40,675 nucleotides of DNA from Chitinophagaceae bacterium. Lineage in GTDB: Bacteria > Bacteroidota > Bacteroidia > Chitinophagales > Chitinophagaceae. Numbering within the stretch: the first letter of the stretch is position 1; each line of letters begins with the position of its first letter. The translations under genes were made by a program, and so were the position numbers. A model generated the notes under the pieces. That model searched no databases and was not told the origin of the DNA. It was given only the letters and a program-made list of their open reading frames with translations. The stretch spans positions 1 through 40,675 of the forward strand of contig JADLCD010000061.1 in the NCBI GenBank assembly GCA_020847395.1, given 5' to 3'. Shown piece by piece: positions 7,874-39,933 of this stretch.

Positions 7874-7950
7874 GAGATTTGAAATTTGAAATTAAGCGAT
7901 CAACGATCATCCAGCATTTTCAAATTTTCAAATTCATACATTTTCAAATT
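7874..7950. repeat. Short-period repeat arms (7-8 bases) between rpmD and rplO
   Basis: The left arm 7874-7894 has heptamers of the type GAAATTT. The right arm 7915-7950 has octamers TTTTCAAA, complementary in character to the left arm, so the two can pair in RNA. The right arm ends next to the rpmD stop codon. Confidence 0.75.
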
Positions 7951-8131
7951 ACTTCACTTCCTCAACCTTAACCAGGTGATTAACTTTTGTAATCATGCCC
8001 AGTATTTGAGGCGTAGCTTCAACTTCTACAGTAGCGTTTAACTTTTTAAGTCCAAGCGCTGAAATAGTTTTTTTCTGACGCTCCGGTCTGTCGATTACGC
8101 TTTTTACCTGTGTTATTTTAATTTTTGCCAT
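7949..8131 (-). CDS. rpmD: 50S ribosomal protein L30
   Basis: A 60-residue L30 of normal length: [20 protein letters not shown], then [22 protein letters not shown], matching the family's single small alpha/beta domain on the large subunit. The gene begins 4 bases after the rpsE stop, so the two are almost certainly translated from one message. Confidence 0.97.
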
Positions 8132-8135
8132 GATG

Positions 8136-8654
8136 TTATCCGTTAAATACTTTTTTAAGAGCTATCCTTCTTTCTTTTGAAACAACAATTGGCTCACGCA
8201 ACAAGCCCAATGCTTTAAAAGTTGCTTTTACCACGTTGTGAGGATTAGCAGAGCCAAGAGATTTAGCCAAAACGTCTGTAATACCGGCGCTTTCCAATAC
8301 GGCACGCATGCTTCCCCCGGCTATTACACCGGTACCATGAGCGGCTGGTTTAATCAATACTTTAGCAGCACCTTCTTTTGCCCATTGGTCGTGAGGAATA
8401 GTTCCTTTCATTACAGGCACTTTAATCAGGTTTTTCTTGGCATCATCAATGCCTTTTGAAATAGCCTGCTGAACTTCTTTAGCCTTGCCCAAACCATGAC
8501 CTACCACTCCATTCTCGTTACCTACAACTACCAATGCAGAAAAGCTGAAAGCACGTCCACCTTTGGTTGTTTTTACCACACGGTTAATCGCAACCACTTT
8601 TTCCTTAAACTCTATTTCACCGGCTTTTACCTTGTTTAAATTTACTTTTGACAT
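8136..8654 (-). CDS. rpsE: 30S ribosomal protein S5
   Basis: S5 lies near the mRNA entry and decoding region of the small subunit and affects translational accuracy. The 172 residues include the dsRNA-binding-like N-domain ([37 protein letters not shown]) and the C-domain with [19 protein letters not shown] and [18 protein letters not shown]. All are canonical. It is closely coupled to rpmD downstream and follows rplR upstream. Confidence 0.98.
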
Positions 8655-8697
8655 TATAATACTTGTTATTGGTATTTATGATTTGTTATCTCCAACA

Positions 8698-9051
8698 TTA
8701 GAGTGTTAATCCGCCTTCACGTGCACCTTCTGCCACAGCTTTAATACGACCGTGATACAGGTAACCGCCACGATCAAATACTACATTAGTAATACCGGCT
8801 GCGATTGCTTTTGAAGCGATTGCTTTACCAACCAAACCACTCAACTCAACTTTAGGAGCTTTCTGTGCTTTAATATCTTTATCTTTTGTTGAAGCAGACA
8901 AAATAGTTTCGCCATTCTCATCATTAATGAGCTGAGCGTATATATCAGTATTGCTTCTGAATACTGATAATCTTGGCCTTTGTGCCGTACCAGATACTGT
9001 TTTGCGGATGTTGTACCTGATCTTTTGTCTCCTGATAACTTTTGCGTCCAT
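8698..9051 (-). CDS. rplR: 50S ribosomal protein L18
   Basis: L18 binds 5S rRNA in the central protuberance together with L5. The 117 residues start [21 protein letters not shown] and contain [18 protein letters not shown], the usual RNA-binding start of the globular domain, and the C-terminal [24 protein letters not shown]. Length is typical for the bacterial protein. Confidence 0.98.
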
Positions 9052-9066
9052 GTTTCTTTATTTTTC

Positions 9067-9085
9067 CTTCCGATTCTGCCGGAAG
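9067..9085. repeat. Hairpin between rplF and rplR
   Basis: CTTCCG (9067-9072) and CGGAAG (9080-9085) form a 6-base stem with a 7-base loop in the 45-base gap. Position and size resemble the stems in other gaps of this operon. Confidence 0.5.
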
Positions 9086-9096
9086 TAATATTAAAA

Positions 9097-9651
9097 TTAT
9101 TTACCAGCAGCTTTACCAGCTTTACGACGGAGCTGCTCACCAGCGTATTTAACACCTTTACCTTTGTACGGCTCAGGCTTACGAAGGCTGCGCAATTTTG
9201 CCGCTACCTGTCCAAGCAATTGCTTGTCTGTTCCTTCCAAAGTAATAGTAGGGTTCTGACCTTTTTCCTGGGCAGTAGCTACCTTCAATTCCTTAGGTAT
9301 TTCAATCAAAATATTGTGAGAATATCCTAAAGTAAGGTCGAGCAGGTTACCCTGGTTAGATGCTTTAAAACCCACACCCACTAACTCTAACTGCTTTTTA
9401 TAACCTTCTGTTACACCTTTTACAAGATTGGCAGTGATGGCACGATATAAACCGTGTAATGCACGATGCCTGATCTGGTCAGTAGGGCGTGTGAAAACCA
9501 CTTCGCCATCTTTCACTTCTACTTTAATATCACGATCTACGGATTGTTTTAATTCGCCCTTCGGTCCTTTAACAGTAATCACGTTATCGTTTCCTACTGA
9601 AACAGTAACACCTGCAGGAACTGTAACCGGTTGTTTACCTATACGAGACAT
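9097..9651 (-). CDS. rplF: 50S ribosomal protein L6
   Basis: L6 sits near the factor-binding region of the large subunit. The 184 residues show two related beta/alpha halves: MSRIGKQPVTVPAGV at the start, GVTEGYKKQLELVGVGFKA in the middle, and the signature KPEPYKGKGVKYAGEQLRRK near the end. The extra AGKAAGK tail is basic and unremarkable. Confidence 0.98.
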   Translation of the reverse strand: MSRIGKQPVTVPAGVTVSVGNDNVITVKGPKGELKQSVDRDIKVEVKDGEVVFTRPTDQIRHRALHGLYRAITANLVKGVTEGYKKQLELVGVGFKASNQGNLLDLTLGYSHNILIEIPKELKVATAQEKGQNPTITLEGTDKQLLGQVAAKLRSLRKPEPYKGKGVKYAGEQLRRKAGKAAGK

Positions 9652-9690
9652 AATAATTTGAAATTTAAAATTTGATATTTATTGTTACCT

Positions 9691-9706
9691 GCTGAAAGTG
9701 TTCAGC
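9691..9706. repeat. Hairpin between rpsH and rplF
   Basis: GCTGAA (9691-9696) and TTCAGC (9701-9706) form a 6-base stem with a 4-base loop. The same 98-base gap also contains AT-rich TTTGAAA-like units near 9656-9680. Confidence 0.5.
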
Positions 9707-9749
9707 TCCGTATAGAGAGCTTAAATTATCGATCAGCATATTTTCGCAA

Positions 9750-10148
9750 TTAAGAAATATAGCAAAGTACTTCACCACCTACATTCTGCAATTTTGCCTG
9801 CTTATCCGTCATCACGCCTTTTGAAGTGCTTACAATAGCAATACCCAAACCATTCATCACTCTTTTAAAGTCTGCCGGTTTTGAATACTGACGCAAACCC
9901 GGGCGGCTGATTCTTTCCAAAGACCTGATAGCAGGTTGCTTTGTTTGAGCATCATATTTCAACGCGATTTTAATCACGCCTTGTTTGCTGTCATCTTCAA
10001 ACTTATATTTCAGAATGTAACCCTGATCGTACAGTATCTCTGTAATACGCTTTTTAAGGTTAGAAGCGGGGATTTCCACAATACGATGTCCAGCCAACTG
10101 GGCGTTACGCACTCTTGTGAGAAAATCTGCAATAGGATCTGTTACCAT
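9750..10148 (-). CDS. rpsH: 30S ribosomal protein S8
   Basis: S8 is a primary 16S rRNA-binding protein of the central domain, and in E. coli it also represses the spc operon by binding its mRNA. The 132 residues run MVTDPIADFLTRVRNAQ to the conserved C-terminus STSKGVMTDKQAKLQNVGGE, which holds the RNA-binding Ser/Thr loop. Whether it autoregulates this message is not visible from the sequence. Confidence 0.98.
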   Translation of the reverse strand: MVTDPIADFLTRVRNAQLAGHRIVEIPASNLKKRITEILYDQGYILKYKFEDDSKQGVIKIALKYDAQTKQPAIRSLERISRPGLRQYSKPADFKRVMNGLGIAIVSTSKGVMTDKQAKLQNVGGEVLCYIS

Positions 10149-10164
10149 TTTTATGAATTAATCT

Positions 10165-10215
10165 GTTGAAAATTTAATTTATCAAATTTCAATTCTGCAA
10201 TTTCAGATTTGAAAT
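10165..10215. repeat. AT-rich TTTGAAA/TTTCAAA units between rpsN and rpsH
   Basis: Scattered units such as GAAAATTTAA, TCAAATTTCAA and GATTTGAAATTT lie in this gap and could pair with each other. They look like a more degenerate version of the short-period arrays found in other gaps. Confidence 0.5.
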
Positions 10216-10485
10216 TTACCAGCTCGCTTTTTTTACGCCTGGTATTATACCATTTAAAGCCATATCACGAAAAGCTACCCTCGACAATCCGAAGTAACGG
10301 ATATAACCCCTTGGGCGGCCTGAAACCTGGCAACGGTTTTTCAAACGAACTTTTGATGAGTTTTTCGGTAACGCGTCAAGCGCTTTCCAATCGCCTGCAG
10401 CTTTTAAAGCCGCACGCTTTTCAGCATAAAGTTCTACCAGGTGTTCTCTTTTTCTTTGTCTGGCTTTTACTGATTCTTTTGCCAT
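10216..10485 (-). CDS. rpsN: 30S ribosomal protein S14 (zinc-free form)
   Basis: An 89-residue S14: [17 protein letters not shown], then [21 protein letters not shown], the family signature. The CxxC pairs that bind zinc in the C+ form are missing (only one Cys remains), so this is the zinc-independent C- type. It is shorter than the ~101-residue E. coli form. It sits in the standard rplE-rpsN-rpsH order. Confidence 0.97.
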
Positions 10486-10515
10486 ATTGTTTTAATTCAG
10501 ATTATTGATTGTCAC

Positions 10516-10532
10516 TCCGGCTTTATACCGGA
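10516..10532. repeat. Short hairpin between rplE and rpsN
   Basis: TCCGG (10516-10520) and CCGGA (10528-10532) pair around a 7-base loop. It is a weak stem in a 63-base gap. Confidence 0.4.
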
Positions 10533-10548
10533 TTGATAATTATGTTGA

Positions 10549-11118
10549 TTAATCTTTTTTAGTGTTTCTGAAAGGCATACCCAATTCCTTCAGCAACTCA
10601 TACGCTTCTTCGTTAGTATTAGCTGAAGTAACAAAGGTGATATCAAGACCTGTGATTTTATTTACTTTATCAATATCAATCTCAGGAAAAATAATTTGTT
10701 CAGTGATACCGAGTGTATAGTTTCCACGGCCGTCAAATGCTTTTTCGTTGATGCCTTTAAAATCACGTACACGGGGTAATGAAGCAGCAATAAGGCGATC
10801 AAGAAACTCATACATTTTTACACCACGCAATGTTACCCTTGCACCAATAGGTACTCCTTTACGTAATTTAAAGTTTGATATATCTTTTTTAGATGTAGTT
10901 GCCACCGCTTTCTGACCGGTGATATTACCAAGTTCTTCCACTGCAATATCAACCAGTTTTTTATCGTTTACAGCTCCGTTAACACCGCGGTTAATACAAA
11001 TTTTTTCCAACGCAGGAACCTGCATTACACTTTTGTAGGCAAAGCGTTTCATCAATGCCGGTACAACATCCTTTTTGTACTTATCGGCTAACCTTGGAGT
11101 ATATTTTGTAGTGCTCAT
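10549..11118 (-). CDS. rplE: 50S ribosomal protein L5
   Basis: L5 binds 5S rRNA and contacts the P-site tRNA and bridge region. The 189 residues show the family features: [19 protein letters not shown], the [21 protein letters not shown] region, the loop [11 protein letters not shown], and the C-terminal [23 protein letters not shown]. Length is slightly above the ~180 usual in other phyla because of the N-terminal extension [13 protein letters not shown]. Confidence 0.98.
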
Positions 11119-11141
11119 CTTTTCAACTTTTAATTTCGTGC

Positions 11142-11159
11142 GGTATCTTAAAGGATACC
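11142..11159. repeat. Hairpin between rplX and rplE
   Basis: GGTATC (11142-11147) and GATACC (11154-11159) form a perfect 6-base stem with a 6-base loop in the 50-base gap. Confidence 0.5.
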
Positions 11160-11168
11160 AAAATTATT

Positions 11169-11504
11169 TTAGATTGTTGCGCCTGACTTTTTAGACACGC
11201 GAACTAATTTTCCGGTTTCCCTGGTGCGCTTTACTTTAGTAGCTTCACCTTTTTTTGCATCCCACAGTTTTACATTACTGATGTGAATAGGCGCTTCTTT
11301 TTTTACCAAACCACCCTTGGTATTTTGTGCTGATGGTTTTGTGTGACGGGTAATGATGTTTGCACCCTCAACTACCACACGGTTTTTTTCAGGAAATACT
11401 TCCAGCACCTTACGTGGTTTTTTAACGTCTTTATCATCACCGGCAATAATCACTACTGAATCGCCTTTTTTAATGTTAAACTTGGGTTTAAATCTTGTGC
11501 TCAT
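11169..11504 (-). CDS. rplX: 50S ribosomal protein L24
   Basis: L24 starts large-subunit assembly by binding the 5' region of 23S rRNA. The 111 residues begin with a KOW motif (NIKKGDSVVIIAGDDKDV, KVLEVFPEKNRVVVEGANI) and continue with TRHTKPSAQNTKGGLVKKEAPIH, all typical. It lies in the order rplN-rplX-rplE; the gap to rplN (93 bases) carries short-period repeats. Confidence 0.98.
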   Translation of the reverse strand: MSTRFKPKFNIKKGDSVVIIAGDDKDVKKPRKVLEVFPEKNRVVVEGANIITRHTKPSAQNTKGGLVKKEAPIHISNVKLWDAKKGEATKVKRTRETGKLVRVSKKSGATI

Positions 11505-11518
11505 TTTATTTCGCTTTT

Positions 11519-11600
11519 GGCTGCCAGCTTTCAGCTACCAGCCGATTTAATGTAAATTCTATATTTGCCACAAGCCTATAGCTCATAGCTCAATGCCCTA
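11519..11600. repeat. Heptamer repeat arms between rplN and rplX
   Basis: The first arm, 11519-11546, holds four consecutive 7-base units (GGCTGCC, AGCTTTC, AGCTACC, AGCCGAT). The second, 11573-11600, holds four more (AGCCTAT, AGCTCAT, AGCTCAA, TGCCCTA). The last unit overlaps the rplN stop codon (11598-11600). The AGCT core is self-complementary, so arms can pair with each other. Confidence 0.8.
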
Positions 11601-11966
11601 TAACACCTCAGGTGCAAGAGATATAATTTTCATATATCCCTTATCGCGCAACTCCCTTGCCACAGGTCCAAAAATACGTGTGCCGCGGGGTTCATCTGCC
11701 TGGTTAAGCAACACTACTGCGTTATCATCAAACCTGATATAAGAACCATCTTTACGACGTAACTTATTTTTTGTACGAACAATTACTGCTTTAGTAACAG
11801 TTCCTTTTTTAATACCGCCTGCAGGAATGGCGTCTTTTACCGTAACTACTATTTTATCGCCAATCTTTGCGTAATCCTGGCCGCTGTTTCCCAGCACACG
11901 AATACAAAGCACTTCTTTAGCGCCGCTGTTGTCTGCTACGTTTAACCTGCTTTCTTGCTGAATCAT
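11598..11966 (-). CDS. rplN: 50S ribosomal protein L14
   Basis: L14 is a core large-subunit protein that forms a bridge to the small subunit near helix 44. The 122 residues start [20 protein letters not shown] and include the conserved [16 protein letters not shown]-type segment ([17 protein letters not shown]) and [20 protein letters not shown]. Length is exactly as expected. Confidence 0.98.
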
Positions 11967-11976
11967 CTTTTTGTTA

Positions 11977-12076
11977 TTTGAAATTTGAAATTTGAAATTT
12001 GAAATTTGGACCGATATAAATGTTCAGGATGTGTAACATATCAAATCTCAAATCTTAAATCTCAAATCAGAAATAA
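11977..12076. repeat. Heptamer repeat arms between rpsQ and rplN
   Basis: The left arm (11977-12008) has four exact copies of the unit TTTGAAA in a row plus a partial one. The right arm (12042-12076) has CAAATCT, CAAATCT, TAAATCT, CAAATCA, GAAATAA in a row. The arms are roughly complementary, so the gap can form a long imperfect hairpin. Confidence 0.85.
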
Positions 12077-12077
12077 T

Positions 12078-12335
12078 TTATTTCGCTTTTTCTACTACTT
12101 CTACCAGGCGCCAGCGTTTTGTTTTACTCAACGGGCGGGATTCCATAATTTTTACAGTATCGCCTACACCACACTCGTTCTTCTCATCATGAGCATGGAA
12201 TTTGGTAGTTTTTTTAACGAATTTACCGTAGATAGGGTGCTTTACTTTTGTTTCAATTTCTACCGTAACAGTTTTTTCCATCCTGTTACTGGTAACCACC
12301 CCAATCTTTGTTTTACGCAAATTTCTTTCAGCCAT
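12078..12335 (-). CDS. rpsQ: 30S ribosomal protein S17
   Basis: S17 is a primary 16S rRNA-binding protein needed for small-subunit assembly. The 85 residues contain the family's OB-fold signature: [39 protein letters not shown], and [20 protein letters not shown]. Its start is 4 bases downstream of the rpmC stop, indicating tight coupling. Confidence 0.98.
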
Positions 12336-12339
12336 TGTA

Positions 12340-12546
12340 TTAGCTTTTAGCTTTTTTCTTTAATTCTGTTTTTAATCTCGCGATATCTCTACGCAATAAT
12401 TGTATGCTCATTGGATTTTCCAATGGTGAAGTTGAATGTGCAAATTTTAATTTCTTAAGACGCACTTCATCTTCTTTAATGCGAGCCTGCAAATCAACCT
12501 CATTCAAACCATTCAGGCTACTTAAAAACTCAGATTTCTTTGACAT
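12340..12546 (-). CDS. rpmC: 50S ribosomal protein L29
   Basis: L29 is a small two-helix protein near the peptide exit tunnel and helps form the docking site for SRP and trigger factor. The 68 residues run [20 protein letters not shown], then [20 protein letters not shown] and a basic tail, matching the family. Confidence 0.96.
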
Positions 12547-12580
12547 TTCTTATCTGTTTGAAAATTAAGAACATTAAATA

Positions 12581-13003
12581 TTACGCTCCTGCATAGTCGC
12601 GGCGAATGATGAACTGGGTTTTAATCGGCAACTTAGCCGCAGCAAGTTCCATCGCCTCTTTTGCTACCTGAACAGGTACACCGTCAGCTTCAAAAATAAT
12701 GCGACCCGGCTCTACCACAGCAGCCCAGAATTCAGGGTTACCTTTACCTTTACCCATTCTCACTTCGGCTGGTTTACGTGTAATTGGCTTATCAGGGAAA
12801 ATGCGGATCCAAACATTACCTTCACGTTTCATGGCACGTGTCATTGCCTGGCGTGCAGATTCAATCTGGCGGTTGGTAAGCCATATAGGCTCTAAAGCCT
12901 TTAACGCAAACGAACCAAAAGATATAGTTGCACCACGCTTCGCTACCTCTCTAATTCTTCCTTTCTGTGCTGTTCTGTGTTTTGTTCTCTTTGGCTGTAA
13001 CAT
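12581..13003 (-). CDS. rplP: 50S ribosomal protein L16
   Basis: L16 binds near the A-site tRNA elbow and organises the tRNA-binding region. The 140 residues include [16 protein letters not shown], the [21 protein letters not shown] helix, and the Gly-rich loop [20 protein letters not shown]. Order (rpsC-rplP-rpmC) and length are standard. Confidence 0.98.
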
Positions 13004-13040
13004 TATATTACAATTTGAAAATTTTAAATATTATTCTTTA

Positions 13041-13096
13041 ACCTTAAACCCTACACCTTCCACCTTAAACCTTCTACCTCTCCCCTATCTCCTGTC
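13041..13096. repeat. Heptamer array running into the rpsC stop
   Basis: Eight consecutive 7-base units, read on the plus strand: ACCTTAA, ACCCTAC, ACCTTCC, ACCTTAA, ACCTTCT, ACCTCTC, CCCTATC, TCCTGTC. The array starts between rplP and rpsC and continues through the rpsC stop codon (13085-13087) into its last codons, in the same register. Confidence 0.8.
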
Positions 13097-13867
13097 TCCG
13101 CCTCTTCTATCACCGCCTCTCCTGTCGCCTCTGTCTCCACCGCCTCTTCTGTCATCTCTCCTGTCTTCTCTTCTGCCTTCACCTACACCAGATTCACCTT
13201 TATTACCTTCAATGATATTAGGATTAAGATCACGTTTGCTCAATACTTCACCTTTACATATCCATACTTTAATACCGATTTTTCCATAAACAGTCAACGC
13301 AAATACATTGGCGTAATCAATTTCCATACGAAAAGTATGTAAAGGAACACGACCTTGCTTGATTTCTTCTGTACGGGCAATTTCAGCACCGCCCAAACGA
13401 CCGCTAACTTTAATCTTTATACCTTCAGCACCCATACGGAGTGCAGAAGCTATTGCTAATTTGATAGCACGCTTGTAGTTAATACGGTTTTCTATCTGGC
13501 GGGCAATAGTATCACCCACAATATTTGCATCAAGCTCAGGGCGGCGAACCTGCAGAATGTTAATCTGCACATCTTCCTTACCGGTAAGCTTTTTCAATTC
13601 TTCTTTAATATGGTCAACTTCACCACCACCTTTACCAATGATGATACCAGGCTTTGAAGTATGTATAGTAACGATCAGCTTATTGAGCGTACGTTCAATT
13701 ACGATTTTTGAAATACCGCCTTTATTAATACGGGCGTTCAGGTAAGTCCTGATCCTGTTGTCTTCAATCAGTTTCTTAGAAAAATCCTTTTTGTTTCCGT
13801 ACCAGTTGCTTTCCCAACCGCGGATGATACCTAACCTGTTACCAATTGGATTTGCTTTCTGACCCAT
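13085..13867 (-). CDS. rpsC: 30S ribosomal protein S3 with Arg/Gly/Asp-rich tail
   Basis: S3 forms part of the mRNA entry channel and has helicase activity there. The start is taken at the ATG giving [14 protein letters not shown], the conserved S3 N-terminus; an upstream in-frame ATG would add 14 residues that do not fit the family and reach into rplV. The 260-residue protein has the KH domain [14 protein letters not shown] and the C-domain [23 protein letters not shown]. After [18 protein letters not shown] comes a low-complexity tail of about 30 residues built from DRR, GGD and GD units. Acidic or basic S3 tails vary among bacteria, but this repetitive one coincides with a heptamer array at the DNA level. 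Confidence 0.97.
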
Positions 13868-13892
13868 GTTTATTATTTGAATATTTTCACTT

Positions 13893-14234
13893 TTATTTCT
13901 GGTCAACAATTACTGTTACATGATTGCTGCGCTTACGAACCCTGTAAGCTCTTCCCTGTGGTGCGGGTAACATTCTTTTTAATACTCTGCCACCGTCAAC
14001 AAAAACGGTTTTTACCAGCAACGCACTGTCAGCCGCGCTTTTACCTTCATTCTTCTGTTCCCAGTTACTAACTGCACTTCTTACCAATTTGTAGAGCGGT
14101 GTAGAAGAATGCTGTGGATGATGCTCCAATATTGCCAAAGCCTTCTCTACATCCATACCGCGGATAACATCTGCCAACAGACGCATTTTGCGCGGAGATG
14201 TAGGATAGTTTCTGAGTTTAGCTACTGCTTCCAT
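13893..14234 (-). CDS. rplV: 50S ribosomal protein L22
   Basis: L22 lines the peptide exit tunnel. The 113 residues start [19 protein letters not shown] and hold the [18 protein letters not shown] helix, and the tunnel loop region [20 protein letters not shown], with the family's conserved Arg residues. It ends 25 bases before the rpsC start. Confidence 0.97.
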
Positions 14235-14260
14235 TGTTTTATATTTCTGGTGCAGGCTTC

Positions 14261-14288
14261 ATGTAACTTGTAACATGTAACCTGTAAC
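14261..14288. repeat. Four-unit heptamer repeat between rpsS and rplV
   Basis: ATGTAAC, TTGTAAC, ATGTAAC and CTGTAAC follow each other without gaps; only the first base varies. It lies in the 61-base gap on the leader side of rplV. Confidence 0.85.
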
Positions 14289-14295
14289 TGTTTTA

Positions 14296-14568: not shown

Positions 14569-14581
14569 GTTAATTAGTTAA

Positions 14582-14684
14582 TTTGAAAATTTGAAAATTT
14601 GAAAATGTCCTGGTGATATTCTATTCTGGTAGTGGTGGACTTGAAAAACATTTTCAAATTTTCAAATCCACACATTTTCAAATT
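14582..14684. repeat. Octamer repeat arms between rplB and rpsS
   Basis: Three exact tandem copies of TTTGAAAA (14582-14605) face TTTTCAAA units at 14651-14658, 14659-14666 and 14675-14682. The arms are reverse complements, so a long AT-rich hairpin can form with a ~45-base loop. The right arm ends directly at the rplB stop codon (14685). Confidence 0.9.
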
Positions 14685-15876: not shown

Positions 15877-15891
15877 CTCTATCTAATTTGA

Positions 15892-15932
15892 AAATTTCTT
15901 AATTTGAAAATTTGAAAATGTTTTCAAATTTT
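15892..15932. repeat. TTTGAAAA array with perfect inverted repeat between rplD and rplW
   Basis: Units of TTTGAAAA occur at 15892 onward. AAAATTTGAAAA (15907-15918) is followed after TG by its exact reverse complement (15921-15932), giving a 12-base stem. It lies immediately before the rplD stop on the minus strand. Confidence 0.85.
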
Positions 15933-17244: not shown

Positions 17245-17538
17245 TGTTTTGTATTTATACCCTTTTAGGTTAAAGAGACAGAATGGATATAAATTTCCAT
17301 GCTTCAATCCCCGTTTGCCACCGACCTTTTCCCGTATTTCCCACTTGCGAAAGAGGAAGTACCAGTGGTAAACTAACCTCGAAGGGCTAGTTCATATTTA
17401 ATTCTTTTCTGCCGGACCATTAACTGGTTTTACCCGGCTTTTCCAGCGCTGCTTTATTCCTTTTTACCGGCTTTGGCAGATGGAGTATAGTAAGAACTAA
17501 TTTCTTTTTGTTTGCCCCTATTTGCGGGGGCTTTACTT
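17245..17538 (-). other. Long rpsJ-rplC spacer, possible leader
   Basis: These 294 bases carry no convincing gene. On the operon strand there are pairable stretches: GCCCC/GGGGC at 17514-17531 right after rpsJ, and CCACT/AGTGG flanking a 19-base loop (plus-strand 17341-17369 region). The composition is less AT-rich than the other gaps and it lacks the 7-8-base repeats. It may be a structured leader or hold an internal promoter for rplC onward. Confidence 0.4.
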
Positions 17539-17937: not shown

Positions 17938-17994
17938 AGCTGTGAGCCGGTCAGCTTTGGGCTATCAGCATTGGGCTATGAGCTTTCAGCACCG
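17938..17994. repeat. Heptamer array upstream of the S10 promoter
   Basis: Eight units in a row with one 8-base exception: AGCTGTG, AGCCGGTC, AGCTTTG, GGCTATC, AGCATTG, GGCTATG, AGCTTTC, AGCACCG. It lies between the divergent rpsJ and ORF6N promoters. Confidence 0.85.
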
Positions 17995-21085: not shown

Positions 21086-21089
21086 GAAT

Positions 21090-21221
21090 GAGCTGTGGGC
21101 CGTGAGCTATGACAGATGCGTTTAATTAAAAATTAAATTTTTTTTCTGTTATTATCATAATTTGTTTGCCGACAGCCACAGCTCATAGCTCATGGCTCAT
21201 AGCCCATAGCCGACAGCGCAA
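21090..21221. repeat. Facing heptamer arrays after ogt
   Basis: The left arm at 21090-21110 holds GAGCTGT, GGGCCGT, GAGCTAT, beginning 5 bases after the ogt stop. The right arm at 21180-21221 holds six units in strict register: AGCTCAT, AGCTCAT, GGCTCAT, AGCCCAT, AGCCGAC, AGCGCAA. The arms are complementary (GAGCTATG against CATAGCTC), so a stem with a ~70-base AT-rich loop can form. Confidence 0.9.
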
Positions 21222-22018: not shown

Positions 22019-22126
22019 GCTATGGGGCGATGAGCTATCAGCTAAATATTTATGGTTTGTGGTTTTGGGTTTATAGTTGACCGCAAATCCGAAACTATAA
22101 ACTGTAAACGACGAACTATAAATAAC
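22017..22126. repeat. Heptamer arrays between the HPS-like and dehydrogenase genes
   Basis: The first units (GAGCTAT, GGGGCGAT, GAGCTAT, CAGCTAA; 22017-22045) overlap the stop codon of the upstream gene. Then come GTTTGTG, GTTTTGG, GTTTATA, GTTGACC (22055-22082) and, facing them, AAACTAT, AAACTGT, AAACGAC, GAACTAT, AAATAAC (22092-22126). The latter two sets are complementary in character and form a hairpin just before the next start codon. Confidence 0.9.
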
Positions 22127-23157: not shown

Positions 23158-23234
23158 GTTTGTGATTTATGGTTTGAGGTTTATGGTTTAACCTCTGACT
23201 CTAACTCCAAACCATAAACTATAAACCATAAACT
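23158..23234. repeat. Eleven heptamers in one register between dehydrogenase and SDR genes
   Basis: Starting one base after the stop codon, the gap divides into 11 consecutive 7-base units: GTTTGTG, ATTTATG, GTTTGAG, GTTTATG, GTTTAAC, then two linker units, then CCAAACC, ATAAACT, ATAAACC, ATAAACT. The first five and last four are mutually complementary, giving a long imperfect hairpin. It ends 5 bases before the next ATG. Confidence 0.92.
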
Positions 23235-33780: not shown

Positions 33781-33806
33781 GGCTTTATACTATACACTTT
33801 GAGCAG

Positions 33807-33838
33807 GGGTAGAAGTTAGAATAACTTCTACCCTTTTT
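33807..33838 (+). terminator. Terminator after the DUF1080 gene
   Basis: GGGTAGAAGTTA (33807-33818) and TAACTTCTACCC (33822-33833) pair perfectly around a 3-base loop, followed directly by TTTTT. It closes the SusCD-sugar locus. Confidence 0.92.
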
Positions 33839-34265
33839 GCTGACATTAAAACCAATACACTCATCGTCATTTCGATTCCGCCCTCTGGTTGCAATGAATT
33901 AAAGACATGTTTTGGCGGAAGAGAAATCCGTTTGGCAGTAGTACAGAAGATGAACATGAGTACCAATGCCCGGCAGACTTCTCCCTCGCAAAAGAGCGAT
34001 TAAAGTATAGTGTTCGTGTTGGCTCAGTCGAAAAGACGGTAAAAGTGCTTCAAATATACAACCAGCACTAAGGCAAAGCATATGTGAAAACTTGAAATAC
34101 ACCCGCGAAATATTAATCTGCATCGTTTGTGTTTTAATATCTCGGTGCGTTGCAGCTCCTTAGCGTATTTTATATGTTTTGAAGGCGCCCCTGCTCTCTT
34201 AATTTGAAATGCGCCGGTGAAACTTTTCCCTGAACCGCGATACGCAGTTTCCTGTATCTTGCATT
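33839..34265. other. Intergenic region with degenerate repeat-like sequence
   Basis: About 430 bases without a gene. Part of it (about 33866-33991) has complementary pieces such as GATTCCGCC against GGCGGAAGAG, and 'gagaaatcc' against 'acttctccctcgc', resembling worn copies of an intergenic repeat family seen in Bacteroidota. I cannot name the family. The last bases before the start codon include TATCTT (34255-34260), a poor -7 site. Confidence 0.45.
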
Positions 34266-35420
34266 ATGCTCAATCTGCCCATATATCTTGATAATAATGC
34301 CACCACTCCTATTGACCCGGCAGTGCTTAATGCCATGATGCCATATCTTACCAACCAGTTTGGTAATGCGGCAAGCAGGAGTCATAGTTTTGGCTGGGTG
34401 GCAGAGGAAGCCGTTAAACTTGCAAGAGAACAGGTTGCAGCATTAACAGGTGCACACAGCAGCGAAATCATTTTTACCTCCGGCGCTACAGAAGCTATCA
34501 ATCTTGCTATAAAAGGCGTTATTGAAATATATGCTGATAGTGGCAAACACATCATCACCTGCGCCACCGAACATAAAGCTGTACTTGATACCTGCAAACA
34601 TCTTGAAAAATCCGGCGTGGAAATAACTTTACTGCCGGTACAACACAATGGCATTATTAATATAACAGATCTGAAAAAAGCCATCCGGAAAGATACCCTG
34701 CTCATTACCGTTATGTATGCCAATAACGAAACAGGTGTACTGCAACCCATCCGTGAAATTGGTGCAATAGCCAGGGAACATAACATTTTATTTTTTACGG
34801 ATGCTACACAGGCTGTTGGTAAAATACCGGTGCATGTTATTGAAGATAATATTGATTTGCTATGCCTGTCTGCTCATAAAATATATGGACCTAAAGGCAT
34901 TGGCGCATTATATGTAAGAAGAAAAAATCCGCGTGTAAGATTATCTCCGCAAATAGATGGTGGCGGTCACGAAAAAGGATTGCGCAGCGGAACTTTAAAT
35001 GTGCCTGGTATAGCGGCATTAGGAAAAGCAGCAGAACTATGCAGATCACAAATGCAGGAAGAAGCATTGCGCATAAAAAAACTGAGAGACAAACTTGAAT
35101 ATGCCTTAGTGAGCATTGGAGGTGTAACAGTAAACGGCGATACGGCACATCGCTTACCTAACGTAACCAATCTTTCTTTTAGTAATATAAAAGGAAACCA
35201 GTTACTCACAGCTATTACCAAAACCATTGCTGTTTCATCCGGTTCAGCCTGTACTTCGGCCAATCCTGAGCCCTCGCATGTTTTAAAAGCAATGGGTATT
35301 GCAGATGAATTGGCTAAAAATTCCATACGCTTTGGCTTAGGAAGATTTACTACCGGCGAAGAAATTGAATATTGCATTGAAGAAGTAACCCGCATTTTGA
35401 AAAAGCTGCGTAATGTATAA
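34266..35420 (+). CDS. Cysteine desulfurase (IscS/NifS family)
   Basis: A 384-residue PLP enzyme that takes sulfur from cysteine for Fe-S clusters or tRNA thiolation. PLP-binding Lys205 is in LSAHKIYGPKG, with His103 (ATEHKAV) and Asp179 (FTDATQAVGK) in their usual places. The mobile catalytic Cys329 is in VSSGSACTSANPEPSHVL, the long-loop IscS (group I) type. No iscU or other Fe-S assembly genes follow, so it may serve tRNA or general sulfur transfer. The N-terminus IYLDNNATTPIDPAV fixes the start. Confidence 0.95.
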   Translation: MLNLPIYLDNNATTPIDPAVLNAMMPYLTNQFGNAASRSHSFGWVAEEAVKLAREQVAALTGAHSSEIIFTSGATEAINLAIKGVIEIYADSGKHIITCATEHKAVLDTCKHLEKSGVEITLLPVQHNGIINITDLKKAIRKDTLLITVMYANNETGVLQPIREIGAIAREHNILFFTDATQAVGKIPVHVIEDNIDLLCLSAHKIYGPKGIGALYVRRKNPRVRLSPQIDGGGHEKGLRSGTLNVPGIAALGKAAELCRSQMQEEALRIKKLRDKLEYALVSIGGVTVNGDTAHRLPNVTNLSFSNIKGNQLLTAITKTIAVSSGSACTSANPEPSHVLKAMGIADELAKNSIRFGLGRFTTGEEIEYCIEEVTRILKKLRNV

Positions 35421-35491
35421 AACAGCTCATTCTCAGAAATACTATACACAAATTTGTTTTAATTTAACAACCACTTATTACATCTCATTCC

Positions 35492-37855
35492 ATGCATACT
35501 TTTATAAAAAATATTTTTCTTACTGCTGTTGTACTGCTGTTAGCTGTTCATGCACTTACCCAAACACATTTTTATGTGGCGGCTGATGGCAGCGATACAC
35601 ACAATGGTTCTATCATTCAGCCCTTCAAAACATTACAACAGGCACTATCTGCGGCCTGTATACAAAAAGGTAAAGCGGTTACCATTGAATTGCGAAAAGG
35701 CATTTATTATCTTAACAAAACTATTAACATAGATGCTAAATACTGTAAGCTTTCGTCATTATATATAAAAGCCTACAAGAATGAAGAAGTAATGATCAGT
35801 GCCGGAAAGCGCCTGCAACTGCAATGGAAACCCTGGAAAAATGGCATATATGTAGCCGATGTTACTCAGGGAATTGTTTTTGAACGCTTATATGTAAATC
35901 ATATTCTGCAACCTCTTGCACGGTATCCCAACTACGATTCATCTGCCAGGATATTTCATGGAACCGCCGCGGATGCAATTGCACCAGAACGTGTAAAGAA
36001 ATGGAAAGACCCCGCAGGTGGTTATATACATGCCTTGCATGCCTATGAATGGGGCGGGTTCCATTATCGCATAACCGGCACCGACAGTAATGGTAACTTA
36101 CAGATGGAAGGTGGATGGCAAAACAATCGTCCCAACGAAATGCATAAAGAATATCGTTTTGCCGAAAACATTTTTGAAGAACTGGATGCCCCCGGTGAAT
36201 GGTGGCTGGATAAGAAAAAGCACCTGCTTTATTATTATCCGGCTAAAGGAGTAGATATACATAAAGCCGTGGTAGAAATAGCCCAGCTTAAAAACAGCAT
36301 TGAATTAAAAGGCAGCATTGCACAACCTGTAAAAAACATTCGGTTGAGTAACCTGCGTTTCGCACACAATGAGCGCACATTTATGAACACCAAAGAACCT
36401 CTGCTGCGCAGCGACTGGACGATTTATCGTGGTGGTGCAGTTCTTTTAGACGGCACTGAAAATTGTGTGATTGAGGATTGCGTTTTTGAAGGAATAGGAG
36501 GCAATGCGGTAATGTTGAGTAACTATAATAAAAATGATACAGTAAGAGGTTGCCATATATATAATACAGGTGCGAATGCCATATGTTTTATCGGCGATAC
36601 AAAAGCGGTTCGCTCTGCCACTTTTGGTTATGAAAATTACACTCCCTATGATCAATTAGATAAAACGCCGGGACCACTCACCAACAATTTTCCACAGGAT
36701 TGTGTAGTGGAAAACAACCTGCTGCATGATCTTGGTGATATTGAAAAGCAGGCTACAGGCGTGGAAATAGAAGTTGCCTCCTCCATTACGGTAAGGCATA
36801 ACAGCATTTACCACACTTCACGTGCAGGAATCAATATCGGGGATGGATGTTTTGGAGGGCATATACTGGAATTCAACGATGTATTCAATACGGTTCGCGA
36901 AACAGGAGATCATGGTTCCTTTAATTCGTGGGGGCGTGACCGTTATTGGGCGCCCGGCAGAAGCTACATGGATAGTCTCGCGGCCATACATCCTGAACTG
37001 ATTTTCCTGGATGCACAAAAACAAACCATTATCCGCAACAATCGTTTCCGTTGTGATCATGGTTGGGATATTGATCTTGATGACGGTTCATCCAATTATC
37101 ATATCTATAACAATCTTTGCCTGAATGGCGGATTAAAACTGCGCGAAGGATTTAAACGAATTGTAGAAAACAATATCATGATCAACAATTCTTTTCATCC
37201 GCATGTGTGGTTCAAAAACAGCGGTGACGTATTTGAAAGAAATATTGTGATGAAAAAATACGCACCGATCCAGGTAAACGACTGGGGCAACAGCATTAAC
37301 TATAATTTATTTCCCGACACAGCCGCTTTGCATGACGCGCAATCAAGAGGTACGGATGCAAATAGTATAGCGGGAGACCCTCTCTTTGCAAATCCCCTGA
37401 AAGGCGATTATACAGTAGCATCCGCATCACCGGCTATAGCCCTGGGTTTCAAAAACTTTCCGATGGATTCATTTGGTGTACAAAAACCTTCACTCAAAAA
37501 AATAGCGCAGCAACCGCAAATACCGGTGCTGATTACAGATGCAGGGCTTTCAGACAAATCTACCGTGGTAGCTTTTTTAGGAGGAAGTATAAAATCAGTT
37601 GACGGCTTAGGCGATCGCTCCGCATACGGGCTGCCTGATGAAACCGGTGTAATCATTTTTAATACAGGAGAAAACAGCCTGCTCGCTCAATCAGGGCTTC
37701 AGCCCAAAGATGTGATACGCTTTGCCGGGGGTAAAGTTGTTAAAGACGTAAAACAATGGATGGATATTTATCAAACCCTCAACTGGACAGGGCGTATACC
37801 GCTCACGATTATGCGTAACCAACAAATACTGCATATCGAGTTAAGAACAAAATGA
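35492..37855 (+). CDS. Secreted parallel beta-helix protein with C-terminal PDZ domain
   Basis: A 787-residue exported protein: signal peptide (FLTAVVLLLAVHALTQ), then a DUF1565-type opening FYVAADGSDTHNGSIIQPFK, and a long right-handed beta-helix with turn repeats such as CVIEDCVFEGIGGNAVMLSN, HNSIYHTSRAGINIGDGCFG and NNRFRCDHGWDIDLDDGSSN. This layout is shared with polysaccharide lyases and GH141-like glycoside hydrolases. The last ~100 residues form a PDZ-like domain (VIIFNTGENSLLAQSGLQPK, DVIRFAGGKVVKDVKQ). A PDZ at the end of a beta-helix enzyme is unusual and may bind a C-terminal peptide or substrate chain. Activity is unknown. Confidence 0.85.
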   Translation: MHTFIKNIFLTAVVLLLAVHALTQTHFYVAADGSDTHNGSIIQPFKTLQQALSAACIQKGKAVTIELRKGIYYLNKTINIDAKYCKLSSLYIKAYKNEEVMISAGKRLQLQWKPWKNGIYVADVTQGIVFERLYVNHILQPLARYPNYDSSARIFHGTAADAIAPERVKKWKDPAGGYIHALHAYEWGGFHYRITGTDSNGNLQMEGGWQNNRPNEMHKEYRFAENIFEELDAPGEWWLDKKKHLLYYYPAKGVDIHKAVVEIAQLKNSIELKGSIAQPVKNIRLSNLRFAHNERTFMNTKEPLLRSDWTIYRGGAVLLDGTENCVIEDCVFEGIGGNAVMLSNYNKNDTVRGCHIYNTGANAICFIGDTKAVRSATFGYENYTPYDQLDKTPGPLTNNFPQDCVVENNLLHDLGDIEKQATGVEIEVASSITVRHNSIYHTSRAGINIGDGCFGGHILEFNDVFNTVRETGDHGSFNSWGRDRYWAPGRSYMDSLAAIHPELIFLDAQKQTIIRNNRFRCDHGWDIDLDDGSSNYHIYNNLCLNGGLKLREGFKRIVENNIMINNSFHPHVWFKNSGDVFERNIVMKKYAPIQVNDWGNSINYNLFPDTAALHDAQSRGTDANSIAGDPLFANPLKGDYTVASASPAIALGFKNFPMDSFGVQKPSLKKIAQQPQIPVLITDAGLSDKSTVVAFLGGSIKSVDGLGDRSAYGLPDETGVIIFNTGENSLLAQSGLQPKDVIRFAGGKVVKDVKQWMDIYQTLNWTGRIPLTIMRNQQILHIELRTK

Positions 37856-37880
37856 TCAAACTGGTTCTTGCGACTTTCAC

Positions 37881-39809
37881 CTACCAGTTCAACTCCAGCT
37901 TATTATTCTTCCTGTTTATATCAGCCATTCGTTGTGTGGGATCAATCTCAATAGATTTAATATTCATCAATCGCTGATTAACTTCAAAAGTATAGGTAGG
38001 ATGCGTCCATTTCCATGGCTCGTGTACTACCATCGGCGTTGCATCTTCCTGAGGCTTTTTGCCAAACATAATCAACTGGGGTATATAAGCCATTTCTTTT
38101 GAGCCATCTTTGAATTGCAGTGCTACGTCTACTGGCATTGGCATTTGCCCTATCATCTTTAAACGGATATTGGTTTTACCATTTTGTTCCCACAAGCTGT
38201 CAATAGCATAATCAATGGTTTTGGTGGTGTTCACCCAATATTCCTTATACCAATCCAGTTGTACTCCACTAACCTTTTCAGCCACACGAATAAAATCACC
38301 GGCATTTGGATGTTTAAACCGCCATGTTTTATAATATTCCAACAGGGTTTTATTTCTTAATGAATCACTGATAATATAGCCTAACTGTGCAAGAAACACT
38401 GCGCCTTTTGAATAGGCAGCGTTGCTGTAAGCGTAATTAGTATTAAAGTGATCAGCATGCGTAGTGAGCGGTTCTTCCAATCCGCTCCTGGTAAGATTAA
38501 AATAACCAGCGTATGAATCATCCTGGTATAATGGCAGGTCTGCAGGTTGCCCTGCTTTTCCGGAATCAGTGAGTAATTCAAGACCGCTGATAAGCCCGGC
38601 TTTCTTTTGTTTATAAAAAGCAGAAACCAGTCCTTCTGCGTAGCTGGTAAATCCTTCGTCCATCCAGGCATATAATGACTCGTTGGTTGCCAGCATCATC
38701 TGGTACCAGCTATGCATCCACTCATGAAAAGCAGTGCCCAGGCTTGGCCCATTAATCAATGTAGCCATCGGGTATTCCATGCCGCCATCACCACCGTGTA
38801 TAAACGAATATTGTTTATAAGGATACTCCCCAAAATGTTTTTCTATAAAAGGCAATACCGTTACAGCGGCATCAGCCACTTCCTTCCAGGCGGCATCATT
38901 ACCCGCATTATCAGGTTTGTATTTATACAATACGTGAATGACAGGGCCATTAGGAATATTACGGGTAAGGTGTTTAAACTCAGGATCTGCAGCCCATACA
39001 AAATCGTGCACATTGGGTGCACTAAATTTCCAGGTAAGCGTATTGCCGGGAGGGCGTGTTACTTTTGTTCCTGCACTTTCATAACCGTACCCAATTTGAT
39101 TTGCATTCTGCAAATAACCAGAACCGCCGATAATATAATTTTTATCAATAGTGATATTTACGTCGAAGTCTCCCCATATTCCGTAAAATTCACGGGCAAC
39201 ATATGGCGTAGGATGCCATCCCTCATAATCATATTCACACATTTTAGGATACCACTGGCTCATAGAATATCGTACACCGGTGTTGGGATTATCTCTTCCT
39301 GAGCGGCGGACCTGTAAAGGCACCTGCGCTTCAAAGTCCATATCAAATACCACTTTTGATTTAGGAAGAACAGGTTTTGACAAATTAACTTCCAGTATTG
39401 TTTCATATACTTTAAACTGCTGGTCAACACCATTCAATTTTAAGGTATTGATTTTCTGGTAACCAATTTCTTCTGGTTTAAGATTTTGTATACGATCTTT
39501 CACCCTCGGATCCCAATCACCTACAGGCTTACCGTCTCTTCCGCGAAATTGAGTTTTTCCAAGTTCACGGCTTCTTGCATCCATCATACTATTGGGTTGA
39601 AACGCATTCCAGTACAGATGATAAAATACCTTGTGTAAAGTATCAGGAGAATTATTCCAGTATTCCAGTTTTTGTTTACCACTGAATTTATTGGTTTGCA
39701 CATCCATATTGATGTCCATAATATATTTTACTTTTTGCTGCCAGCGATCAGGCTGCGCAAAAACACTTATACTTATCAAACAAATGATCAGCGTCGCAAA
39801 TATTCTCAT
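37881..39809 (-). CDS. M1 family zinc metallopeptidase
   Basis: A 642-residue secreted aminopeptidase-like enzyme. The start is set at MRIFATLIICLISISVFAQP, a signal peptide, because a promoter -7 element lies upstream and the earlier in-frame Mets give a non-signal leader. The zinc site is HEWMH (362-366) with Glu385 in WMDEGFTSYAE, the HEXXH-x18-E pattern; the substrate loop is GGMEYPMA (342-349), a variant of the GAMEN motif. A large N-terminal beta-domain (VQTNKFSGKQKLEYWNN) precedes the catalytic part. M1 members with this layout in Bacteroidota are periplasmic or secreted; the peptide substrate is unknown. It follows a TonB receptor gene on the same strand. Confidence 0.93.
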   Translation of the reverse strand: MRIFATLIICLISISVFAQPDRWQQKVKYIMDINMDVQTNKFSGKQKLEYWNNSPDTLHKVFYHLYWNAFQPNSMMDARSRELGKTQFRGRDGKPVGDWDPRVKDRIQNLKPEEIGYQKINTLKLNGVDQQFKVYETILEVNLSKPVLPKSKVVFDMDFEAQVPLQVRRSGRDNPNTGVRYSMSQWYPKMCEYDYEGWHPTPYVAREFYGIWGDFDVNITIDKNYIIGGSGYLQNANQIGYGYESAGTKVTRPPGNTLTWKFSAPNVHDFVWAADPEFKHLTRNIPNGPVIHVLYKYKPDNAGNDAAWKEVADAAVTVLPFIEKHFGEYPYKQYSFIHGGDGGMEYPMATLINGPSLGTAFHEWMHSWYQMMLATNESLYAWMDEGFTSYAEGLVSAFYKQKKAGLISGLELLTDSGKAGQPADLPLYQDDSYAGYFNLTRSGLEEPLTTHADHFNTNYAYSNAAYSKGAVFLAQLGYIISDSLRNKTLLEYYKTWRFKHPNAGDFIRVAEKVSGVQLDWYKEYWVNTTKTIDYAIDSLWEQNGKTNIRLKMIGQMPMPVDVALQFKDGSKEMAYIPQLIMFGKKPQEDATPMVVHEPWKWTHPTYTFEVNQRLMNIKSIEIDPTQRMADINRKNNKLELNW

Positions 39810-39831
39810 CATTACTATTTTTAAACTGCCG

Positions 39832-39839
39832 CAAAGGTA
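39832..39839 (-). promoter_or_regulatory. -7 element before the M1 peptidase gene
   Basis: On the minus strand TACCTTTG fits TAnnTTTG exactly, 23 bases upstream of the chosen start. No TTTG is at the ideal -33 spacing. Confidence 0.55.
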
Positions 39840-39885
39840 GCAAAGCATCTCTATCAATACCCTGCAATTGAACCTGGTGAAATTA

Positions 39886-39933
39886 TTTAACAAAAGCCTA
39901 TCCTCATTTTCACATTCCCACATTTCCACATTA
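39886..39933. repeat. Octamer repeat at the TonB receptor stop
   Basis: Units CATTTTCA, CATTCCCA, CATTTCCA and CATTACTC follow one another at about 39902-39933, ending at the stop codon of the receptor gene. It is another 8-base-period array in an intergenic gap. Confidence 0.7.

Follow-up and report, generated by a model that had tools for sequence, protein, structure and literature searches.

Among long simple repeats, heptamers are reported to be the commonest in most of the repeat-rich prokaryote genomes covered by a survey cited in PMC4679880, a paper that itself describes TAACTGA direct repeats in Beggiatoaceae, Cyanobacteria, and five Bacteroidetes. The GGGAATC and GGGGA(C/T)T heptamers of Xanthomonas and Nostoc are documented in PMC4692102; its authors found no role for them, and the Xanthomonas GGGAATC heptamers form two convergent repeat sites in 70 of 186 and 75 of 183 repeat patterns. 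In the Nostoc trnL intron, the P6b stem contains heptanucleotide repeats of two interchangeable cores, Class I or II (PMC4476775). The Xanthomonas heptamers and the P6b stem are precedents for the repeats considered here, contrary to the preliminary description, which knew of no matching case. For Bacteroidota, a matching description was not found in the open-access literature searched.

The window, i.e., the whole 40,675-nucleotide stretch of Chitinophagaceae DNA analysed, had been described as carrying repeat arrays with a 7- or 8-base step in its intergenic gaps. TRF reports arrays of period 7, 8, or 14 at nearly all of the places named (21090 is the exception), and 13 of the 15 stretches tested are confirmed, since of 1000 dinucleotide shuffles made from the gap itself only 0-6 reach an equal or higher score. 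The period is not distinct from shuffles in the left arm 21087-21115 (611 of 1000 score as high or higher) and in the AGCTTTC array 17945-17992 (617 of 1000). Arrays of score at least 10 are carried by 10 of the 38 window gaps of at least 25 bp, and no Rfam family matches the window at gathering scores. The arrays are listed below, with the supporting method in parentheses.

7870-7893: period-7 array, ATTTGA core, rpmD-rplO gap (TRF, shuffle test)
7916-7934: period-8 array, ATTTTCAA core, rpmD-rplO gap (TRF)
9655-9680: period-7 array, rpsH-rplF gap, adjoining the rplF start (TRF)
11970-12008: period-7 array TTTGAAA, rpsQ-rplN gap, rplN start side, first arm on the + strand (shuffle test)
12038-12074: facing period-7 arm TCAAATC, rpsQ stop side (shuffle test)
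13036-13079: period-7 array ACCTTAA/ACCTTCN, adjoining the rpsC stop (shuffle test)
14262-14288: period-7 array TGTAACN, rpsS-rplV gap (shuffle test)
14569-14606: period-8 array AATTTGAA, rpsS start side (shuffle test)
14650-14684: facing period-8 arm ATTTTCAA, scored core 14650-14667, abutting the rplB stop (TRF, shuffle test)
15885-15919: period-8 array AATTTGAA, rplD-rplW gap
21177-21217: period-7 array AGCTCAT/AGCCCAT (shuffle test)
22049-22072: weaker period-7 arm TTTATGG, after an OMPdecase/HUMPS-family gene (TRF, shuffle test)
22092-22122: weaker facing arm AAACTAT, scored core 22092-22109 (TRF, shuffle test)
23159-23190: period-7 array GTTTATG/GTTTGAG, directly after the stop codon of a zinc-dehydrogenase-like gene (shuffle test)
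23209-23233: facing arm AAACCAT/AAACTAT, just before a short-chain-dehydrogenase start (shuffle test)
39905-39932: period-8 array CACATTCC (TRF, shuffle test)

The gap 23158-23234 does divide, as stated earlier, into 11 heptamers sharing one register. The three in the middle, however, fall outside the family; the gap consists of two arms in register flanking an 18-base middle.

A genome-wide lag test, called for beforehand, found an excess at lags 7 and 8 in gaps, and not the lack of excess that had been named as counting against the idea. The data support a fixed step of 7 or 8 bases, realised in many cores, in intergenic gaps across the genome. The sample covers 1.076 Mb of the 5.17-Mb genome, G000 (692 gaps, 172 kb of gap sequence) and comes mostly from contigs matched by the TTTGAAA pattern, the matched places outside the window being excluded. 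Its gaps contain 87 period-7 arrays against 1.45 in dinucleotide shuffles and 25 period-8 arrays against 2.05, with corresponding values of 76 and 1.1 for period 14 and 25 and 0.75 for period 16; slight excesses appear at periods 9, 12, 13, and 15 (5-6 versus 1.1-1.3), and periods 3-6, 10, and 11 stay at background level. Over 398 kb, lag runs in gaps number 14, 28, and 14 at lags 7, 14, and 28, and 11, 15, and 12 at lags 8, 16, and 24 (0.5-0.8 in shuffles), with 4 at lag 21 (0.47 in shuffles). Coding sequence, five times longer and given as raw counts without shuffles, yields 3, 2, and 1 at lags 7, 14, and 28, and 2, 3, and 9 at lags 8, 16, and 24; the count of 9 belongs to lag 24, a multiple of three. 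Samples of G003 and G015 both show the period-7 excess, and only G003 that of period 8. Gap edges are approximate, as genes were called with a simple custom hexamer caller; gaps shorter than 25 bp were excluded.

The reading favoured here, which falls somewhat short of probable, is that arrays arising by short-step duplication are kept as transcribed stem-loops and form a many-core family akin to the Xanthomonas and Nostoc heptamers. Duplication in 7- or 8-base steps would create and renew the arrays, and recombination or re-growth could swap one core for another at the same gap. Matching arms would be transcribed into mRNA, giving a stem-loop between a stop codon and the next start, possibly an intercistronic or 3' element that protects or separates neighbouring messages. 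As the form and not the sequence would be retained, the core would be free to change. The slippage origin suggested in the preliminary description is plausible. Its suggestion that the arrays act as mRNA 3' ends is plausible too, though no more than a conjecture: T-runs are scarce next to arrays, and many of the gaps sit in the S10-spc ribosomal operon. A strong rival, and a real possibility, is neutral slippage, in which a 7/8-base tendency would fill tolerant gaps, divergent promoters and start regions would purge the arrays, and facing arms would arise via template switching, all without function. The excess is nearly confined to periods 7, 8, and their multiples, as this rival would have it, and a polymerase-slippage idea for heptamers is cited in PMC4692102 and PMC4679880.

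Among gaps of 80-400 bp in G000, arrays occupy 51 of 256 tandem, 5 of 52 convergent, and 2 of 89 divergent gaps (tandem versus divergent, p = 1.2e-5). With G003 and G015 included, the counts are 72 of 426, 11 of 80, and 3 of 130, the scarcity between divergent genes being significant in G000 alone (p =.21 in G003, p =.45 in G015). Neutral slippage predicts that promoter-free convergent gaps should be the richest, whereas in G000 their occupancy lies below that of tandem gaps, a difference that is not significant (p =.11). REP and BIME elements are stem-loops that lie in tandem and convergent gaps and avoid divergent genes, but they are not short tandem units; the arrays share this gap preference while consisting of short tandem units without a fixed consensus. 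Many array gaps are situated within the S10-spc ribosomal operon. The location of arrays at or near stop codons, pointed out earlier, proved frequent: 40 of 93 tandem-gap arrays lie within 30 nt of a stop, and 24 of 93 within 30 nt of a start.

The order of units bears further on neutral slippage. Neighbouring heptads in G000 (.10 versus.16) and G003 (.034 versus.115) are less often the same than after shuffling their order, which is unlike simple one-unit slippage and opposite to its expectation; the deficit is confined to these two samples, and a small cyanobacterial set looks slippage-like (.61 versus.46 for seven arrays in 150 kb of plasmid sequence). For period 8 in G000, adjacent-unit identity is.23-.28. 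G000 (62 arrays) and G003 (19) show a clear ABAB pattern of alternating heptads, which is kept out of the main claim because the remaining sets lack it: the pooled congeneric loci with 58 arrays, other Chitinophagaceae and relatives with 50, other Bacteroidota with 11, and G015 with 10. A reverse-transcriptase origin was set aside, as the one RVT_1 match in the genome has nothing linking it to the arrays.

Comparisons of orthologous gaps, made partly by eye, show that in a sister species both arms of the same gap can be built of heptads with a different core, the switch stopping at the gene ends; the rpsQ-rplN gap has undergone such a core swap between two sister species. Many orthologous gaps carry no array or one with a different core, which suits neutral slippage. 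Against it, occupancy of S10-operon gaps in the genus correlates with that in other Chitinophagaceae and relatives across 19 gaps (rho =.60, p =.0066), also after gap length is accounted for (.64, p =.003). At rplB-rpsS, inner arm identity is 1.00,.98, and 1.00 in L161, L162, and L166, versus.53,.56, and.58 for the inner rest, suggesting that arms can outlast the loop where a cassette is retained. In pooled S10 gaps, by contrast, inner arm identity (.712) barely exceeds that of the inner rest (.668) and falls short of array-free gaps (.766), which counts against the favoured reading. The g11-g10 gap of L204 has heptad arms in L204, L221, and L222, and a hairpin with a T-rich run, judged by eye, in 7 of 10 other species.

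The two facing arms noted in the preliminary description are indeed frequent. In two-sided gaps, the arms share a core in 13 of 23 cases versus 4.3 for permuted arms, and the mean core match within one gap (.731, permuted.598) is reached by 0 of 2000 permutations. In three sets of other loci (orthologous gaps counted apart), inverted pairs outnumber direct ones by 20:5, 33:1, and 6:1; the ratio is 6:1 in G003 and 5:0 in G015. In G000 the excess is slight (20:16 of 64), six of the direct pairs coming from one duplicated locus. The G-rich arm stands first in all 31 inverted pairs of the three genome samples and in 51 of 59 drawn from other loci, the latter counts taking in orthologous gaps of several species and not being independent. 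Under neutral slippage, both the G-first rule and the same-core arms require an extra cause. Predicted RNA folding is stronger in tandem array gaps (median z of -2.11, 20 of 39 below -2) than in sampled other tandem gaps (-0.41, 18 of 84), while among convergent gaps those with arrays show no such advantage over the others (n = 5 versus 21). Same-family arms are slightly more alike in true than in cross pairs (.878 versus.833, p =.03, n = 13); with crude length scaling, duplex energy favours true pairs in only 8 of 20. Covariation does not support arm-arm pairing: in the rplN-rplX hairpin (one gap, eight species), pairs changed on both sides number 2 versus 1.6 shuffled, a point for neutral slippage, and RNAalifold prefers a local hairpin inside each arm.

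Strand polarity is a tendency: on the sense strand, stop-side arrays are GU-rich in 41 of 61 cases (18 are AC-rich, of the opposite polarity, a point against the favoured reading), with G of.265 and C of.10, and start-side arrays AC-rich in 24 of 32 (GU-rich in 5), with G of.093 and C of.244. An explanation built on this composition, in which C-rich, G-poor arrays before starts would aid initiation, G-rich ones after stops would act separately, and the hairpin would be a by-product of one vocabulary in two orientations, seems improbable. It gains from the 10 of 23 two-sided gaps with unlike cores, where left arrays as a group still have G over C and right ones C over G, so that pairing fails to explain polarity. 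Yet it does not account for the excess of same-core arms over permuted pairs, and polarity also appears in start-free convergent gaps, where, within 60 bp of the gap edge, 6 of 7 right-edge arrays are AC-rich and one of only two left-edge arrays is GT-rich; gaps at the ends of stretches did not contribute arrays to this set or to the side counts of G003 and G015.

Mobile REP-type palindromes moved by an IS200/RAYT-like transposase are a very unlikely source. Although Y1_Tnp homologues exist in the genome (five matches) and ectopic matches turn up in the sample for 67 of 75 array gaps, only 26 of 75 keep one after the arrays are masked, the strongest being other dispersed repeats; in most cases, therefore, loops do not travel with their arms. 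The L161 cassette is found elsewhere in its genome (G005) as single arms and a single weak match to both arms (70%, E =.08) among 40 of 120 candidates scored. A fixed palindrome moved as a unit was rejected, given the many cores and the loops that mostly fail to recur with their arms. Intrinsic terminators, the least credible candidate, would suit hairpin-forming arrays often near stop codons but were rejected because T-runs are scarce beside them (TTTTT lies no more than 12 nt from 3 of 117 arrays, versus 141 of 1599 random places), and arrays occur frequently between S10-spc operon genes.

Retention of arrays as transcribed stem-loops, the favoured reading, can be extended to a bolder and unlikely proposition: gap ends in Chitinophagaceae may be selected for form only (a 7/8-base step, G-rich arm first) and re-spelled with divergence, two-arm cassettes being swapped whole between stop and start codons, and a single factor or process would read or write the heptads. 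The arrays have many cores and are nearly all without G-quadruplex capacity: GGG or CCC of any kind occurs in 26 of 117, four G2 tracts in 26, and four G3 tracts in 3. The placement rule would thus be owed to the 7-base step and polarity, since it is common to the G-tract repeats of Xanthomonas and Nostoc and to these nearly tract-free arrays, and the family argues against G-quadruplexes as its cause. As step, polarity, and gap persist through turnover of the core, sequence becomes separable from form, and the rpsQ-rplN gap of two sister species offers a natural core-swap pair.

Compared with known systems, the arrays most resemble the Xanthomonas and Nostoc GGGAATC and GGGGA(C/T)T repeats, which, according to PMC4692102, are likewise heptameric, imperfect, and intergenic, favour aligned ORFs and rarely occupy divergent gaps, are G-rich on the sense strand after stops and on the antisense strand before starts, form numerous convergent inverted pairs, and lie mostly in the same gaps of two sister species with varying length and sequence. 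Those repeats have one G-tract core and are quadruplex-capable. TAACTGA repeats are also intergenic heptamers, occurring among other places in some Bacteroidetes and ahead of certain ribosomal protein genes, but have one core, are direct in 169 sets and indirect in one in the main genome, and mostly lie just before start codons (PMC4679880). STRR and long simple sequence repeats of cyanobacteria and others form 7-base tandem arrays with several cores as well; in the 150 kb of cyanobacterial plasmid sequence, neighbouring units of seven arrays are mostly identical (.61) and 13 arrays include one inverted pair, whereas the present arrays are heterogeneous and their arms often paired. The Nostoc trnL P6b stem similarly has heptads in both arms and unlike cores that swap wholesale within one structure, but it is a single site in a group I intron (PMC4476775), while the present arrays are genome-wide and intergenic. 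Relative to these precedents, what is new is the multitude of cores nearly all lacking G-quadruplex capacity, the class with an 8-base step, and the exchange of one core for another at orthologous gaps.

Imperfect tandem arrays of 7-base (heptad) and 8-base (octad) units are a real, genome-wide feature of intergenic gaps in this Chitinophagaceae genome (G000). TRF reports periods of 7, 8, and 14 at nearly all arrays located in the preliminary description, and 13 of the 15 stretches singled out there score beyond chance when each is compared with shuffled versions of its own gap, the two exceptions being 17945-17992 and the left arm at 21087. The lag test proposed at that stage gave, within gaps, strong peaks at 7, 14, 28 and at 8, 16, 24, with a weaker one at 21, while coding sequence of five times the gap length gave counts of 3, 2, 1 at 7, 14, 28 and 2, 3, 9 at 8, 16, 24. 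In 692 gaps of the sampled 1.076 Mb (including the window, about 21% of the genome), there are 87 period-7 arrays (1.45 expected) and 25 period-8 arrays (2.05 expected); periods 9, 12, 13, and 15 give 5-6 vs 1.1-1.3, and periods 3-6, 10, and 11 stay at background level. Period 7 is also enriched in 400 kb from each of two further genomes, G003 (23 vs 0.6) and G015, which represents another genus (14 vs 0.1). Period 8 is in excess in G003 (5 vs 0.5), with no excess in the 400 kb of G015 (1 vs 0.2).

The window is the entire contig C62 of a 5.17-Mb genome in 190 contigs. The nearest named records for its ribosomal protein L6 are Chitinophagaceae (best 84%, among 80 matches listed), and eleven congeners were located. 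The S10-spc ribosomal operon occupies the minus strand; S17, L14, L24, L2, S19, and S3 are confirmed by Pfam, and the remaining genes are presumed from their order. The plus strand encodes an OMPdecase/HUMPS-family gene, a zinc dehydrogenase, and a short-chain dehydrogenase.

The catalogued period-7/8 arrays (n=117) have numerous cores, each unit combining a constant part with a variable remainder. Heptad cores include ATTTGAA, AGCTATC, GTTTATG, GTTNCAG, AGGTGTA, and AGTGAGT, among others, and octad cores include AATTTGAA and AATGTGGA; by eye, the words are partly common to congeners, with additional ones in other genera. Any GGG or CCC is present in 26 of the 117 arrays, and four G3 tracts in 3. 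Longer repeats also occur: a unit of ~56 bp stands four times in tandem at L215:7204-7406, with an octad array inside each copy; octad arrays of the L169 rpmD-rplO gap lie inside a longer GC-rich segment that is itself tandemly repeated; and a dispersed repeat of ~110-190 bp is found at L211:15657-15848, L039, L205, L183, and L200 (87-89% identity between loci).

Identity between adjacent heptads is below that of shuffled order in G000 (.10 vs.16) and G003 (.034 vs.115), and that between next-nearest heptads is above it (.25-.29 vs.16 and.257 vs.117, respectively). In at least two species, then, slippage by single units is not a sufficient description of the arrays. The pattern is absent from pooled congeneric loci, other Chitinophagaceae and relatives, other Bacteroidota, and G015; cyanobacterial arrays (n=7) show the reverse (adjacent identity.61 vs.46).

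Arms facing each other across a gap share a core in 13 of 23 two-sided gaps (4.3 permuted), and their direct likeness is slightly raised (.533 vs.499 permuted, 55/2000). In inverted pairs the G-rich arm precedes the C-rich one in 20/20 cases in G000, 6/6 in G003, 5/5 in G015, 6/6 in other Bacteroidota, 30/33 in other Chitinophagaceae and relatives (2 reversed, 1 tie), and 15/20 at other congeneric loci, where the 5 exceptions have the AGCT core. Perfect stems show this order at 41:13 in array gaps and 106:87 in array-free gaps. Direct pairs nearly match inverted ones in G000 (16 vs 20, six of them from one duplicated locus) and are scarce in the remaining five sets (5, 1, 1, 1, 0). Cores are unlike in 10 of the 23 two-sided gaps, yet even there the left arrays, taken together, have more G than C and the right arrays more C than G; pairing alone thus does not account for the polarity.

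Our leading account, held tentatively and somewhat short of even confidence, is that the arrays would be intercistronic stem-loops selected for form and renewed through short-step duplication. Tandem array gaps fold more stably than shuffles (median z -2.11, vs -0.41 for other tandem gaps); convergent ones fold no better than other convergent gaps (z -0.70 vs -1.75; n=5 and 21). Across 8 species, 84% of cells in the rplN-rplX cassette are paired. The main rival, that the arrays are neutral slippage repeats, we rate as only slightly less likely: both-side pair changes in that cassette are at shuffle level (2 vs 1.6), in its favour, but the unit order of G000 and G003 speaks against it. RNAalifold on the cassette favours local hairpins inside each arm, and in duplex energy true arm pairs are not superior to cross pairs (8/20). 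An RNA hairpin is possible and common; because of the shuffle-level changes and these last two results, selection on it is not proven.

Orthologous gaps either keep or replace their arrays. The rpsQ-rplN gap carries ATTTGA-type arrays in the window and six congeners (a remnant in L168), and AGCT-type arms or arrays in L161, L165, and other genera (L051, L052, L054, L063, L171, and L073). L161 is the closest congener (rplN.92, rplX.94), and its identity to the window is.93-1.00 in rpsQ,.97-1.00 in the first 150 bases of rplN, and.37-.60 in the gap; for L162 and L166, the arms match the window at.97-1.00 and.90-.93 and the loop at.65-.73. The L161 cassette has an ortholog in another genome, G008 (85%). 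Of 120 candidates elsewhere in its own genome, 40 were scored; these match single arms, except for a weak one that covers both (70%, E.08). In the kept rplB-rpsS cassette of L161, L162, and L166, arms reach 1.00/.98/1.00 vs.53/.56/.58 for the loop; over all S10 gaps pooled, arms stand at.712 vs.668 for the rest, and array-free gaps are higher (.766). This alternation of keeping and replacing is consistent with either arm selection or homogenisation to a family consensus. Occupancy of the 19 S10 gaps correlates between the genus and outside it (rho.60, p.0066;.64, p.003, with gap length allowed for). At the L204 g13-g14 gap of twelve species, at least five spellings are seen by eye (GTTGCAG, AGCTTTC, GGTATAA, GATTTAT, and AGTAAGG), clear heptads being absent from L228, L230, and L240. 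In the L204 g11-g10 gap, L204, L221, and L222 have heptad arms by eye, and seven congeners (L223-L229) a hairpin that leads into a T-rich run; one 3' element was possibly swapped for another.

Blocks conserved by eye in the window are the following.
7814-7869, before rplO: short block GCGAGCCCGA..GGGCGTTGAGT, across congeners, beside variable arrays.
9652-9749, rpsH-rplF gap: short block CTCTATACGG..GAACAC, across congeners, beside variable arrays.
17245-17538, rpsJ-rplC gap: heptad-free block, across genus and family.
The last looks like a structured leader; 0/9 genus gaps have an array there, and Rfam gave no match within the window, this block included.

Among gaps of 80-400 bp, arrays occur in 51/256 tandem, 5/52 convergent, and 2/89 divergent gaps of G000, and in 72/426, 11/80, and 3/130, respectively, of G000, G003, and G015 together; tandem and divergent gaps are not separated in G003 alone (p.21) or G015 alone (p.45). 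Read on the sense strand, most arrays closer to a stop are GU-rich (41/61; AC-rich, 18/61), and most of those closer to a start are AC-rich (24/32; GU-rich, 5/32). A terminator role is disfavoured by the scarcity of T-runs beside arrays (3/117 vs 141/1599 random places) and by location inside the S10-spc operon.

The arrays are a newly found variant of a known yet unexplained kind, the heptamer repeats. In the open-access literature searched, the closest description is that of GGGAATC and GGGGA(C/T)T repeats of Xanthomonas and Nostoc, which are intergenic, seldom lie between divergent ORFs, occur on the sense strand within 50 bp of a stop or on the antisense strand upstream of an ORF, and stand in convergent inverted arrangement in 70 and 75 cases (PMC4692102). 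Exchange of cores within a heptad stem has a precedent in the Nostoc trnL P6b loop (PMC4476775), TAACTGA repeats are described from five Bacteroidetes, with other heptamers mentioned in passing (PMC4679880), and a survey found 7-base repeats weakly over-represented in Bacteroidetes (median 0.75 on a scale of -4 to +4; PMC4060949). The authors of the Xanthomonas/Nostoc study identified no function and suggested that the avoidance may reflect non-canonical structures, e.g., quadruplexes (PMC4692102). The present arrays share the placement tendency of those G-rich repeats, but nearly all lack the tracts for a quadruplex, so the placement rule does not seem to depend on such structures.
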